From positions 124,001-188,000 of the forward strand of contig JAOTON010000473.1 of the NCBI GenBank assembly GCA_034440635.1: a stretch of DNA of 64,000 nt, written 5' to 3'. Shown one piece after another: positions 2,490-61,951 of the stretch (the stretch's first letter is position 1; the number at the start of each line of letters is the position of its first letter). The stretch comes from Lepas anatifera. Lineage: Eukaryota; Arthropoda; Thecostraca; Lepadidae. Under the pieces are notes generated by a model. That model did no database searches and was not told the DNA's origin. It saw only the letters and a list, made by a program, of their open reading frames with translations. The position numbers and the translations under genes were made by a program.

Positions 2490-3218
2490 GGCTGGAGTCA
2501 CCTCTGCTGACAGAGCGACCGGTTTGGAGTACCTCTGGTAGCATATCAGCTGATCTGAAGTCACATCTGCTGACACAGCAGCTGATCTAGAGTCACCTCT
2601 GCTGACACAGCAGCTAATCTGGAGTCGCCTCTGCTGACACAGCAGCTGATCTGGAGTCACATCTGCTGACACAGCAGCTAATCTGGAGTCGCCTCTGCTG
2701 ACACAGCAGCTGATCTGGAGTCGGCTCTGCTGACACAGCAGCTGATCTGGAGTCGGCTCTGCTGACACAGCAGCTGATCTGGAGTCGGCTCTGCTGACAC
2801 AGCAGCTGATCTGGAGTTGCCTCTGCTGACACAGCAGCTGATCTGGAGTCACATCTGCTGACACAGCAGCTAATCTGGAGTCGCCTCTGCTGACACAGCA
2901 GCTGATCTGGAGTCGGCTCTGCTGACACAGCAGCTGATCTGGAGTCGGCTCTGCTGACACAGCAGCTGATCTGGAGTCGGCTCTGCTGACACAGCAGCTA
3001 ATCTGGAGTCGCCTCTGCTGACACAGCAGCTGATCTGGAGTCGGCTCTGCTGACACAGCAGCTAATCTGGAGTCGCCTCTGCTGACACAGCAGCTGATCT
3101 GGAGTCGCCTCTGCTGACACAGCAGCTGATCTGGAGTCACATCTGCTGACACAGCAGCTGATCTGGAGTCGCCTCTGCTGACACAGCAGCTGATCTGGAG
3201 TCGCCTCTGCTGACACAG
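2490..3218. repeat. 32-bp minisatellite ending at the CANT1 exon 1 acceptor
   Basis: About 22 tandem copies of a 32-nt unit. The unit contains CTCTGCTGACACAG followed by CAGCTG, which is the same string that forms the 3' splice site and first bases of coding exon 1 at 3205-3224. Each unit is thus a copy of an acceptor edge. Open frames on the - strand across it (repeating Cys-Cys-Val-Ser-Arg) come from the repeat and are not treated as genes. Confidence 0.93.
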
Positions 3219-3288
3219 CAGCTGCGCTGCTCGGCCATGCGTGACTGGCGCGAGGCAGTCTTCCAGAAACCTCTGACCTACAGACTTG
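3219..3288 (+). CDS. CANT1: CANT1 exon 1 (short 5'UTR plus first 17 codons)
   Basis: Acceptor CTGACACAG ends at 3218, ATG is at 3237, and the donor CTTG|GTGAGG is at 3289. The exon encodes [17 protein letters not shown] plus one base, a phase that fits exon 2. The DWR...TYR-Gly-SSTVR join resembles the cytosolic N-terminus of invertebrate CANT1 proteins. It sits directly at the end of the 32-bp array. It is placed by phase, splice sites and resemblance, not by alignment, so it is less certain than exons 2-7. Confidence 0.7.
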
Positions 3289-6200
3289 GTGAGGGCCGCA
3301 ACCAGGGTCGGAGCAGGACGGGTCGGATTGAGAATCAGCGCCATGTGAGCATTAGCTGACCATGCATAATCTTGTGCATAAGCTTGTGTTGTGTGTTGTT
3401 TGTGTGTTGCTCAATAAATGTGTATGGTTCTTGTCTGAATCGATGCCAAACGACCATCTGTTGAATGACAATGAAAATGTTGGTGGTACTAACACGAGTT
3501 TTGCTTTTACATGGCCATGTGTGTTGTATGAGTTGTTGACTTGCCTGTTGGTCTGACACCGGCGTCGGCCTGGTGGTGGCAGCGGCTGTTTTACAGGCGC
3601 GTCTGACTGTGTGCGGGCCGCAGGCTCCTCCACGGTGCGGTGGTTGCTTTACAGGCGCGTCTGACTGTGTGCGGGCCGCAGGCTCCTCCACGCTGCGGTG
3701 GCTGCTTTACAGGCGCGTCTGACTGTGTGCGGGCCGCAGGCTCCTCCACGCTGCGGTGGCTGCTTTGCAGGCGTGTCTGACTGTGTGCGGGCTGCAGGCT
3801 CCTCCACGGTGCGGTGGCTGCTTTGCAGGCGTGTCTGACTGTGTGCGGGCCGCAGGCTCCTCCACGGTGCGGTGGCTGCTTTGCAGGCGTGTCTGACTGT
3901 GTGCGGGCTGCAGGCTCCTCCACGGTGCGGTGGCTGCTTTGCAGGCGTGTCTGACTGTGTGCGGGCTGCAGGCTCCTCCACGGTGCGGTGGCTGCTTTGC
4001 AGGCGTGTCTGACTGTGTGCGGGCTGCGGCTCCTCCACGGTGCGGTGGCTGCTTTACAGGCGCGTCTGACTGTGTGCGGGCCGCAGGCTCCTCCACGGTG
4101 CGGTGGCTGCTTTGCAGGCGTGTCTGACTGTGTGCGGGCTGCGGCTCCTCCACGGTGCGGTGGCTGCTTTACAGGCGCGTCTGACTGTGTGCGGGCCGCA
4201 GGCTCCTCCACGGTGCGGTGGCTGCTTTGCAGGCGTGTCTGACTGTGTGCGGGCTGCGGCTCCTCCACGGTGCGGTGGCTGCTTTACAGGCGCGTCTGAC
4301 TGTGTGCGGGCCGCAGGCTCCTCCACGGTGCGGTGGCTGCTTTACAGGCGCGTCTGACTGTGTGCGGGCCGCAGGCTCCTCCACGGTGCGGTGGCTGCTT
4401 TACAGGCGTGTCTGACTGTGTGCGGGCTGCGGCTCCTCCACGGTGCGGTGGCTGCTTTGCAGGCGTGTCTGACTGTGTGCGGGCCGCAGGCTCCTCCACG
4501 GTGCGACTGCAGAGCCGCCTGGTGGTGGTGCTGTCTGTGGCCGCTGGCGTCGTTGTGTTGTACCTGCTGCTGCGGCCGTCGCTGCTGCTGCTGCCACCTG
4601 GCGGCGCTACCCTCGGCTGCAACACCACCTACCCGTTGTCGCGGCCGCTGGCCAGCAGCGATGGCGTGCTGCGGTACAGGATAGCAATAGTCAGCGATCT
4701 GGACAGAGCTTCTCGACAAGGCGACAAGTGGCGCAGTCTGCTGCGGTACGGCCACCTCAGCTGGAACCCGCACTCCCTCACCGCCGGCGTCAGCTGGGAC
4801 GCCGACGATGTCACGCTCACCTCCACGCTGGCCCAGGTGGGGGCGCAGCGGACCGCGGCAGCGCCGGCTCGTCCCACGCTTTAGTATTCCTTGTCACTTT
4901 TGATACCAGAGATTAGGTATGAGTTCACCGTTCATTGGTCGCTGTTTTTTATTTCAAGCCGAGTTCTGGTAGTGGGGATGTTCCACGACAAATCGACAAG
5001 TCGATAACACGCTCATGTCGCAGATTTCGGTGTATTTTTGTCAGGGGGCTATTGATGGAGCTGATGACGGTTTTTGGATTCATTTTCCTCCCGGACTTAT
5101 GGTTTCAAAAATTATAGCCTCAGGCATATTGAACATACCCATTTGCATGTCTTTTTTTAATACGACATTTTACCTGTATGCTACTACAAATGCCATAAAA
5201 ACTTGATCTAGGTATCTTAAGGACGAATTACGAATTCTGGCTCATTAGAAATATAATTCAAAAAATTAAATTTTAAATATATTATACATTCTTCAATTTT
5301 TCAAAATTTATAAGAAACTGTTTTCCTATGACTTGTTTAAACTTCTTGAGGCTCACATTACTCTTTGTACTTTTGTCTATAAGATTCAGTAATAAAACGA
5401 ATGGAGACTTTAACACAAAGCGAGATCTGAGGTCCCAAACGTCCCGATCTCCACTTCTGTGAGGTTCGTGCCCCAGCGCGGCCCGCCGTCGCTGCAACTA
5501 TCAAACATCTCTGGTCACGGAAATGGTGTCAATGGTGGAATTGGTCGGCAATGAGGGTAAGGATGTCTTTAAAACAATAAATTGTAATCAATGTCCCATT
5601 CCTTAACACCCGCACTGGAGAGGCGTCCGACACTTACGGGCACTGGAGGGGGGGCGGACTGGTAGGCCCCCTGAGCTCTCGGAAACTAGGCGGCTTAGAA
5701 AAACTCCGGTTGGGGACTCGGTGGTAACTATTGCAATCTTTATTATGACTGATCTTAATTGACTTAGGTCAGTATCGTCAAGTTCAAATGAGGTCGTAAA
5801 GTTCACGTATTAGCCGTGCTGGGTATTCATCCGGAAATGCCGTGATTAAGCTCAAAGAAGTTCAGAATGCACTAAAAACAGAGCAAGGTTATAGTGAGAA
5901 CGTCTCAAAAATTTAAACCTAATTTTTGGGGCTAATGTCATTCAAGGTCATTGACCTATGACGTCACAATATGACATATTCCCCTTATTTACACCATGAC
6001 TAGCACCATAGCAACCGTTGGACGGGAAATGAGCATTGACCTTTACCCATGATATTTTAATTTGACCTGTGACCTTTACATTCATTCGTCTTAACTATGA
6101 CGTCGTAGCATAATATACGTCATACTGGGTAACGCCATGCGACAGGAAGCACCGGACCAATGACTGAGAATGCTGGTATGGCCTTGAAATCTGACCTTGA

Positions 6201-60829: not shown

Positions 60830-61346
60830 TTAACACGCGCGTTGACGGGGGAGAGTACCCGCTTCCCCCTCGGGTTTTTGGAGATAGAATAACAACGGCG
60901 CCGCTGCTGTACTTGCACGCCTTGTTTTGATCAATTCTGCAGCTTTTCCCAAAACTTTAAGGTTGGGTCATCTCAGGTCAGGTCGCCAGTGCAGGTCAAG
61001 TGACCTAACCTCAAAGCTTAAGATAGCACAAACCAGAACAGGGTTAACTTATCCGATTGAAGCGCATATTACATGATACACTGAGTGCTACATACATACA
61101 TACATGAGTGCTATGAAACATATTCCTGGATCTATCATATCGATGACCTCGGACCAGGTACGGATCATGACCTCTCCATTGAAAACGGTTGGGGAAAATG
61201 GGATTTGGGAGAAAATGGCTCTATCTGAGTAGACACAGCCAAGAATGCCTTCACATTCTCTGACTCTCTAGGTTTGGACCTATGGAAGATGGCTATTAAA
61301 ACCTGCAATATTCGTCAGTGTTTTCCACATTGGTCGATAATAGCAG
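60830..61346 (+). mobile_element. TTAA-flanked family B element, partial
   Basis: Starts TTAACACGCGCGTTGACGGG. The interior at 60955-61070 resembles the reverse complement of 44570-44700 (AGGTCA run, then CCAGAACAGGGTTAACTTAT). The right end is not clear. Another TTAACACCCGCCCGGG end starts at 61351. Confidence 0.55.
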
Positions 61347-61788
61347 TTAATTTAACACCCGCCCGGGTGGGCCCCGGAGCCACCTACAGCCTGGTGGGGG
61401 GTTAATCAAATTCCCCCCAACTCGGCTCCTATACGAGATATCGAAAAAACGCAAACGCTGGTGGATAGTTCGTAAGAAATACGAAAAACTTCCATCGGTG
61501 TTTTTGGCTCGGGTCAATATGGAGGTCATGACAGGCCCTAGGTGGCATGTTAGAAAAGAGTTTCTGGGCTGTAGCGTCTGACAGGGTTGAGTTAGAATCA
61601 TTTCTAGGCACCATTCGCTTCTCGTTACGGCGAATCGAATCATGTATAATAGGATTATATTAGGCCAAAACATAAAATTACCTAACTTAAGGTCAGGTCA
61701 AGGCCAACATCTAACCTAGCATAGGCAATGTGCATATCAGCTGGCTCGCAATAACAATCCAATCGTAATGGTATCAAAATTGAAGCTT
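61347..61788 (+). other. No gene recognised
   Basis: Begins with a TTAACACCCGCC-type element end. Frames 61347-61673 (-) and others have no domain. If the - strand exon at 61789-61951 is real, this is its 3'UTR or flank. Confidence 0.45.
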
Positions 61789-61951
61789 TTATTTGATCAT
61801 TGACTGCGAAGTTCTCAGCTCTATTTCTGCAGCCAACTGGCCGTTCCCTGAGGCCATCAGCGGGCCCTCCGGCCAGAAGTCCTGGGCTCCCGCAGCCAGA
61901 GCCTGCGGATTTATCCGGCCGTGGTATCGCCGCGCCACGCCCTGGAGGTAC
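61789..61951 (-). CDS. Candidate terminal exon of an unidentified - strand gene
   Basis: Acceptor GCCTCCCGCAG|G at 61952/61951 on the - strand. The exon completes a codon, then reads YLQGVARRYHGRINPQALAA, GAQDFWPEGPLMASGNGQLA and AEIELRTSQSMIK, stop TAA at 61791-61789. The stop overlaps an AATAAA (ATCAAATAAAAG). The sequence looks like ordinary globular protein and, unlike the array, does not repeat. I do not recognise the family. The array beyond it copies its acceptor and first roughly 35 nt, the pattern seen at the verified CANT1 exons. The gene itself would continue outside the window. Confidence 0.45.

Follow-up and report, generated by a model that had tools for sequence, protein, structure and literature searches.

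Background

Tandem arrays whose units repeat an intron-exon border have been described in amphioxus. In the parts of the published reports considered here, which also bound every comparison below, these "mirages" have units of 10-160 bp that repeat the 5' or 3' border, retain the AG or GT in many but not all copies, and differ in length between haplotypes, while splicing is reported to be normal (PMC3087553); PGBD5 and troponin C add to the cases (PMC3902484). Somatic instability is a further trait of this class. In human duplicated genes, minisatellites with units of about 30 bp lie at exon-intron boundaries and alter the edges of exons and introns (PMC2812944). The Rogers model, in turn, derives intron gain from tandem duplication across AG/GT borders (cited in PMC3087553; PMC4974935). 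The subject of the present analysis is a 64,000-nt stretch of the barnacle Lepas anatifera (assembly GCA_034440635.1, contig JAOTON010000473.1, positions 124,001 to 188,000, forward strand; hereafter the window), in which minisatellites span or adjoin exon edges of the CANT1 gene and predicted ones of an SMPDL3-like gene nested within it. The pattern is real and dense at this locus, and it reaches coding edges other than splice sites, but it is not universal in the genome.

A preliminary description of the window had known of no described system with this regularity; arrays of this kind are described, as far as the excerpts go, in the amphioxus mirages (PMC3087553, PMC3902484). Among the titles and opening lines of abstracts listed from the open-licence literature, the amphioxus case and the related human one were found, and no case from an arthropod, barnacle or crustacean. 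Neither "tandem repeat" nor "satellite" occurs in the main text of the genome paper on Pollicipes (PMC8917513), and the word "splice" appears nowhere in a Daphnia tandem-repeat survey (PMC3152781).

Arrays at the exon edges of CANT1 and SMPDL3

The window carries on its + strand a complete gene for CANT1 (calcium-activated nucleotidase, an apyrase), from about 3219 to 57220. The predicted protein matches the Apyrase domain PF06079 over its full length (profile positions 2-291 of 291, E=1.4e-111), and the alignment with human CANT1 is gap-free across junctions 2/3 to 6/7 of the window gene. The acceptor of exon 2 is supported by the reading frame, not by the human alignment. Exon 1 is predicted: its frame joins that of exon 2, an exon with no start codon of its own, but a homology search with residues 1-75 detected no relative (E ≤ 10). 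Among the matches listed for the whole protein, none exceeds Pollicipes in identity (69%, covering 69% of the query); by E-value it is second, with a fish protein ahead.

Tandem Repeats Finder (TRF) returned 87 rows for the window, merged into 20 arrays of at least 150 bp (0.31 per kb). Five supported CANT1 junctions are held in such arrays: the acceptors of exons 2, 3, 4 and 6 and the donor of exon 6 (Table 1). Exon 6 thus has both its 5' and its 3' border repeated, and the exon 3 array includes six additional near-full copies of its junction. Nine cases had been put forward initially. Besides these five, three concern predicted exons (the acceptor of exon 1 and the two ends of an SMPDL3 intron), and the ninth, at 61951, lacks a supporting exon: none of the frames tried on the two strands matched Pfam at E ≤ 1, leaving the case unproven. 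The 58-nt array concerned, from 61919, runs into the flank as far as 67885, a length of about 6 kb or about 103 copies; another 4.3 copies lie near 79301. Exons 5 and 7, named as exceptions in the preliminary description, are indeed exceptions (gaps in Table 1). Reading their nearest arrays as decayed cases was rejected, the exon side of the exon 5 unit giving P 0.07 and the exon 7 unit falling outside the best 25 of 300 exon-side unit-junction comparisons.

The SMPDL3-like gene (31422-33402) lies antisense within the 30-kb CANT1 intron 5 (22343-52304). Its protein contains the metallophosphatase domain PF00149 and the ASMase C-terminal domain PF19272, both above cut-off. A protein search gave only three strong matches, to an unnamed protein (50%), a Pollicipes protein (49%) and Amphibalanus SMPDL3a (47%), the next being at 30%; these relatives point to barnacles. 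The Pollicipes matches to CANT1 and to SMPDL3 each lie on a contig with a length of 26293261, and the linkage of the two genes may be old.

Both SMPDL3 junctions, a donor at 33402 and an acceptor at 32777 on the minus strand, are upstream of the start codon. They are predicted from splice consensus alone, and it was the arrays themselves that first pointed to them. The predicted intron in the 5' untranslated region (UTR), 624 nt long, consists entirely of arrays: eight donor units and, immediately after them, twelve acceptor units. Such a structure is what would be left if introns were born by tandem duplication of exon segments carrying AG and GT, as in the Rogers model, the arrays then being remnants of intron birth. 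However, the donor and acceptor units of this intron differ in sequence, and the CANT1 introns have large non-array parts (array share 15-75%), which makes this origin very unlikely.

Units, junctions and placement

Eight arrays were compared with their junctions in a 40-nt shuffle test, taking the exon side and the intron side separately. On the intron side, all eight match their own junction. On the exon side, the match is above chance in four (exon 6 donor, exon 2, SMPDL3 acceptor and exon 3), and these own-junction matches top all 300 exon-side unit-junction comparisons, with scores of 26-47 against 23 for the best foreign junction. The units of different window arrays are unrelated in sequence, as had been stated at first; the companion statement, that units copy the adjacent junction, stands for the intron side throughout and for the exon letters in half of the arrays.

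Seven of the 15 exon edges lie at the end of an array, no more than 2 nt beyond it or 35 nt inside it; at tolerances of 20 and 75 nt the counts are 8 and 12, the last figure taking in two donors reached across a short exon. In 20,000 circular rotations of all arrays these counts were never reached (mean 0.55 against 7/15). This null is too lenient because the exons, like the arrays, are GC-rich. In a stricter one, each array was cut to one unit and placed at non-coding or edge-spanning positions matched for GC (band 0.05), with no exon-internal seeds. Five of the 11 supported CANT1 edges were then occupied against 1.28 expected (P=0.005), and 7 of all 15 against 1.71 (P=0.0005); the SMPDL3 acceptor array adjoins its edge and is not scored as spanning. 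A coarse insertion-point null gave P values up to 0.02 (10 homology-verified edges, 40 nt tolerance). The window was chosen for its pattern, so that all these P values look too favourable. The location of arrays at their own junctions, as stated in the preliminary description, lies far beyond both the rotation and the GC-matched nulls. GC accounts for much of the edge excess, but not for all of it.

Coding edges elsewhere in the genome

From the 1.04-Gb assembly (2126 contigs), 20 other stretches, 197 kb in total, were sampled at random. They contain 16 arrays of at least 150 bp (0.081 per kb), 4 of them at the coding edges described here. Conserved exons were located by a coding-potential scan followed by Pfam, and edge-spanning arrays were called by one automatic criterion, which scores CANT1 at 5/14 and misses exon 2, where lost AGs break the register. 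The exons belong to what are presumably COPS4 (PSMD12-CSN4_N and PCI), IFT122 (zinc ribbon, E=4.3e-19) and a SETD1-like gene (SET, E=5.7e-27; N-SET below cut-off), Pfam itself giving the families only. Of 16 fixed edges, 4 have edge-spanning arrays, where random views matched for GC predict 0.87 (P=0.007): one acceptor and the stop codon of COPS4, and two acceptors of IFT122. One IFT122 exon, X3, was found through the repeat unit and not by the coding scan; without it the count is 3/15. The N-SET, Tau95 and ALK-like exons were left out because their edges are not all fixed, and no array of at least 150 bp touches them.

In the COPS4 stop-codon array, which starts within the final codons of the gene, a perfect 47-nt unit that includes the stop codon (2.2 copies) is succeeded by 31-nt units. 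Moreover, the unit of the SMPDL3 acceptor array holds the start codon. The pattern is therefore not specific to splice borders, as had been supposed. Pooled with 17 myosin-head acceptors, weighed below, arrays span 5 of 33 edges outside the locus against 1.56 expected (P=0.015). The samples are small, and the null is conservative, the GC of a random view including the array itself. The pattern thus occurs beyond the locus, but the regularity first reported is mostly that of the CANT1 locus.

Array frequency depends steeply on base composition. Among random 171-nt views, the rate is 0.1-0.9% in the three bins below 55% GC and 3.5, 11 and 15% in the three above. Inside one sampled stretch (L027:6528-6866), a 51-nt (17-codon) array lies in a frame without a stop in any of its copies; no gene was identified there. 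A neighbouring frame, without a Pfam match, is presumed from its resemblance to be MADF/SANT-like. A further example was found in the window flank, where the last exon of a BAH-like gene contributes 11 letters to a 44-nt unit present in at least 8 copies; the Pfam match is weak (E=0.0009, below cut-off), and this flank was fetched deliberately and enters no count.

A second copy of the locus

The same region is present on the minus strand of another contig, C412, collinear with window positions 1-33771; the comparison stops before CANT1 exons 6 and 7. Outside arrays, nine compared stretches are 95-99% identical, and this level of identity in collinear sequence suggests that C412 is probably the other allele rather than a paralogue. 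Exons 1-5 are 98.8-100% identical between the two, and the SMPDL3 exon, near the end of C412, 96.5% with 22 gaps. In contrast, copy numbers differ up to 5.5-fold: window and C412 have, respectively, 16 and 5 copies at exon 2, 23.8 and 131.8 at exon 4, 27.5 and 84.5 in intron 4, 11.9 and 23.9 at the SMPDL3 acceptor, and 8 and 16 at the SMPDL3 donor. The 22-nt array after the exon 4 donor has 12 copies in C412. In addition, CANT1 intron 5 of C412 contains about 11 kb that are absent from the window at 23279-23324.

The second copy also bears on whether the pattern is an assembly artefact, or whether misplaced exons merely mimic an overlap with junctions. Long arrays are difficult to assemble, and the cases of exon 1, the SMPDL3 intron and 61951 rest on prediction. 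Against this, two separate contigs have the same arrays and exons over window 1-33771, junctions 2/3 to 6/7 are fixed by protein alignment, and independent genes show the pattern. An artefact is thus exceedingly unlikely.

Origin and maintenance of the arrays

It is fairly probable that the arrays, in a genome abounding in GC-rich minisatellites, are junction-spanning minisatellites that spread outward from coding edges, while selection clears arrays from the inside of coding sequence. The GC-rich coding exons and their flanks would be the DNA likeliest to duplicate in short tandems. Duplication within coding sequence would be purged by selection unless it kept the frame. A unit straddling an edge would be tolerated: the whole exon and one intact splice site remain, and the extra copies become intron or UTR. 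Ordinary minisatellite turnover would follow, and the two copies of this locus display it, with copy numbers shifting several-fold and exons fixed. Exon definition underlies the choice of splice sites, and through it the spliceosome would stay with the copy backed by the full exon, leaving the other copies as decoys free to decay; to judge from the sequence, the exon-proximal site is presumably the one used here. The outcome would be arrays pinned to coding edges, whether acceptors, donors, a stop codon or a start codon.

Several observations fit this scheme. In the exon 2, exon 6 acceptor, COPS4 and IFT122 arrays, the AG has been lost from 4/15, 3/4, 7/19 and 8/21 (full-length) decoys respectively, and the authentic site is intact in each; in 4 of the 10 arrays tallied, at least a quarter of the decoy sites are gone. 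Lost decoys beside an intact true site, a stop-codon array in COPS4 and copy numbers without constraint together argue against splicing as the cause. The 51-nt array in an open frame also agrees with the survival, within exons, of frame-keeping arrays alone. Further support comes from the alignment-verified junctions that lie within arrays, from the four units that carry letters of their exon above chance, and from the steep rise of array frequency with GC.

Selection for multiplied splice sites had been offered as one explanation; extra copies would aid the recognition of short exons amid long introns. Such selection would agree with the full retention of decoy sites in several arrays. However, the decoy losses, on which selection on decoy sites was rejected as the main cause, the COPS4 stop codon and the several-fold copy-number differences between the locus copies all oppose it. 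Furthermore, splicing to decoy acceptors would in most cases disrupt the frame or introduce stops: an insert both open and in frame would result from 0/11 decoys at exon 2, 0/22 at exon 4 and 0/1 at exon 6, exon 3 being exceptional with 26/99. This explanation is most unlikely.

Outward spread under coding selection also has to face a number of contrary results. An excess of 4-5-fold at the locus is left after GC matching and exon-internal purging, so that GC and filtering may not be all. The exon-side match does not exceed chance in four of the eight arrays tested (exon 1, P 0.28; exon 4, 0.84; exon 6 acceptor, 0.54; SMPDL3 donor, 0.79); these adjoin the edge and hold the splice dinucleotide, yet their origin from the exon is only putative. 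Decoy AG or GT are all kept in the exon 1 (21/21), exon 6 donor (12/12, with GT in 13/13 units) and BAH-like (7/7) arrays, and nearly so at exon 4 (22/23); recent homogenisation, like selection, may account for this retention. The exon 1 array has 23.8 copies in the window and in C412 alike, although the order of its variants differs between the two. Among the myosin-head acceptors, only 1 of 17 (on contig C134) has an array against 0.69 expected (P 0.52), which is no excess. Here 17 of 20 views entered the count, L032 (match edge without a splice border), L037 (internal stop) and L036 (near-copy of L035) being excluded, and L046 and L047, whose arrays end about 13 and 44 nt upstream, were scored as misses. 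Finally, acceptors have arrays more often than donors (7/15 versus 1/11, Fisher P 0.08), a lead that simple filtering does not predict.

The persisting excess and the acceptor lead would instead suit a birth process targeted to exon borders, mainly to 3' splice sites, through R-loops, template switching or repair linked to cDNA or the spliceosome, with hot spots beyond those set by GC. A transcription- or splicing-linked bias of this kind had been considered from the outset. Duplication would then be drawn chiefly to acceptors beyond the effects of GC and selection, functional splice sites would be continually re-copied and homogenised as minisatellite units, and introns consisting entirely of splice-site repeats, such as SMPDL3 intron 1, could result. 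An excess of G on the coding strand (skew 0.33-0.55) marks four arrays, those of exon 3, exon 4, the exon 6 acceptor and the SMPDL3 donor. However, skew is absent or negative at exon 1, at the exon 6 donor and at the SMPDL3 acceptor, and an R-loop skew shared by the arrays was rejected as inconsistent. The acceptor lead shrinks to 8/32 versus 1/11 (P 0.41) once the 17 myosin acceptors join, an array of like make holds a stop codon in COPS4, and arrays away from known exons are common in the random stretches, with 4 of the 16 located at the edges described here. Border-targeted birth is an unlikely candidate, and an extra attraction of duplication to acceptors is doubtful to the same degree.

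If, in line with outward spread from coding edges, such edges often wall in unstable arrays, introns could lengthen within a single species, by anything from hundreds of bases to kilobases, without any change in the proteins. The splice sites in use would then evolve in concert with the repeat, and gene predictors may miss exons in genomes of this sort. The locus would also offer a natural test of spliceosome choice, with one site to be selected among tens of near-identical copies.

Features of the window

The coordinates of genes, arrays and one mobile element are collected in Table 1.

Table 1. Exons, tandem arrays and a retrotransposon of the window (positions in window coordinates)
Feature	Position	Strand	Unit and copies	Exon letters per unit	Evidence or remarks
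CANT1 exon 1 (predicted; start codon 3237)	3219..3288	+			frame compatible with exon 2
CANT1 exon 2	4490..4836	+			reading frame, PF06079
CANT1 exon 3	11018..11177	+			ungapped human CANT1 alignment across junctions
CANT1 exon 4	12549..12614	+			human CANT1 alignment
CANT1 exon 5	22165..22342	+			human CANT1 alignment; nearest array ends 69 nt upstream
CANT1 exon 6	52305..52413	+			human CANT1 alignment
CANT1 exon 7 with stop	56999..57220	+			human CANT1 alignment; nearest array ends 36 nt upstream
SMPDL3-like coding exon (start codon 32771)	31422..32777	-			PF00149, PF19272
Array spanning predicted exon 1 acceptor	2465..3224	+	32 nt x 23.8	~6/32	TRF
Array spanning exon 2 acceptor (4490)	3584..4505	+	58 nt x 16	16/58	TRF, match test
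Array spanning exon 3 acceptor (11018)	8050..11039	+	composite, ~57 nt	~21/57	TRF
Array ending at exon 4 acceptor (12549)	11528..12549	+	43 nt x 23.8	1/43	TRF
Array 73 nt past exon 4 donor	12687..12768	+	22 nt		TRF; resembles intron-4 array
Decayed non-LTR retrotransposon	~12961-20745				CANT1 intron 4; endonuclease and RNase H domains
Array in CANT1 intron 4	20786..22096	+	48 nt		TRF
SMPDL3 acceptor array	32778..33145	-	30 nt	14/30	unit with acceptor CAG and start-codon region
SMPDL3 donor array	33142..33403	-	33 nt	~2/33	unit with donor GGTGAGA
Array spanning exon 6 acceptor (52305)	52128..52309	+	37 nt	5/37	TRF
Array spanning exon 6 donor (52413)	52384..53326	+	73 nt x 12.9	30/73	TRF
Array in CANT1 intron 6	56158..56963	+	29 nt		TRF; ends 36 nt before exon 7
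Array of the ninth case initially proposed	61919..64000	.	58 nt		TRF; no exon established

The retrotransposon of intron 4 is flanked on both sides by sequence of the intron-4 array unit, a unit-like stretch lying on its far side at 12934, which implies that the array is older than the insertion. Its target-site duplication is indistinguishable from array units because the flanking GAACTCTGGCAGCTG is itself part of the unit. A second reverse-transcriptase fragment is found at 50752-51450.

Other features include a run of 273 perfect GT units that passes into 66 units of GTGGGC (26064-27002, about 940 bp) and, on the minus strand at 27304-29379, overlapping open frames of 291, 157, 155 and 99 aa, with TTAGG-like opposed repeats nearby (29850, 30176). 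A Pfam search of the 291- and 155-aa frames gave no match; the run of frames may represent a mobile element. Outside the window, PF00063 matches on contigs C134, C2003 and C1417 include several myosin exon matches kilobases apart within a single open frame of 942-1510 aa, where introns are perhaps stop-free and filled by arrays.

Comparison with known systems

Units that hold an intron-exon border, the hallmark of mirages, were found in the window arrays, in COPS4, at two IFT122 acceptors, at one myosin acceptor and in the BAH-like gene. As in the portions of the amphioxus reports used here, the border may be repeated on either side, copy number is unstable and AG or GT is partly lost. The present case differs in that it concerns an arthropod, involves five supported edges in one gene and reaches up to 132 copies; moreover, a stop codon and the surroundings of a start codon carry arrays as well, and one predicted intron consists of arrays throughout. 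Splicing was reported to be normal in amphioxus, whereas the window is known from its DNA, from which use of the authentic borders may be presumed.

The human boundary repeats, going by the extracts, occur in recent segmental duplicates, are half coding and are tied to novel introns, whereas the coding exons are unchanged here (PMC2812944). Tandem duplication across AG/GT borders is shared with the Rogers model as outlined in the sources, but no gained coding intron is shown in the window. The genome of penaeid shrimp is likewise repeat-rich, but, in the part of the report considered, with short simple repeats and not junction-derived minisatellites (PMC7878876). The arrays of the Lepas locus are a known but seldom studied kind of pattern in a new lineage, and an arthropod case would show that mirages are not peculiar to cephalochordates.

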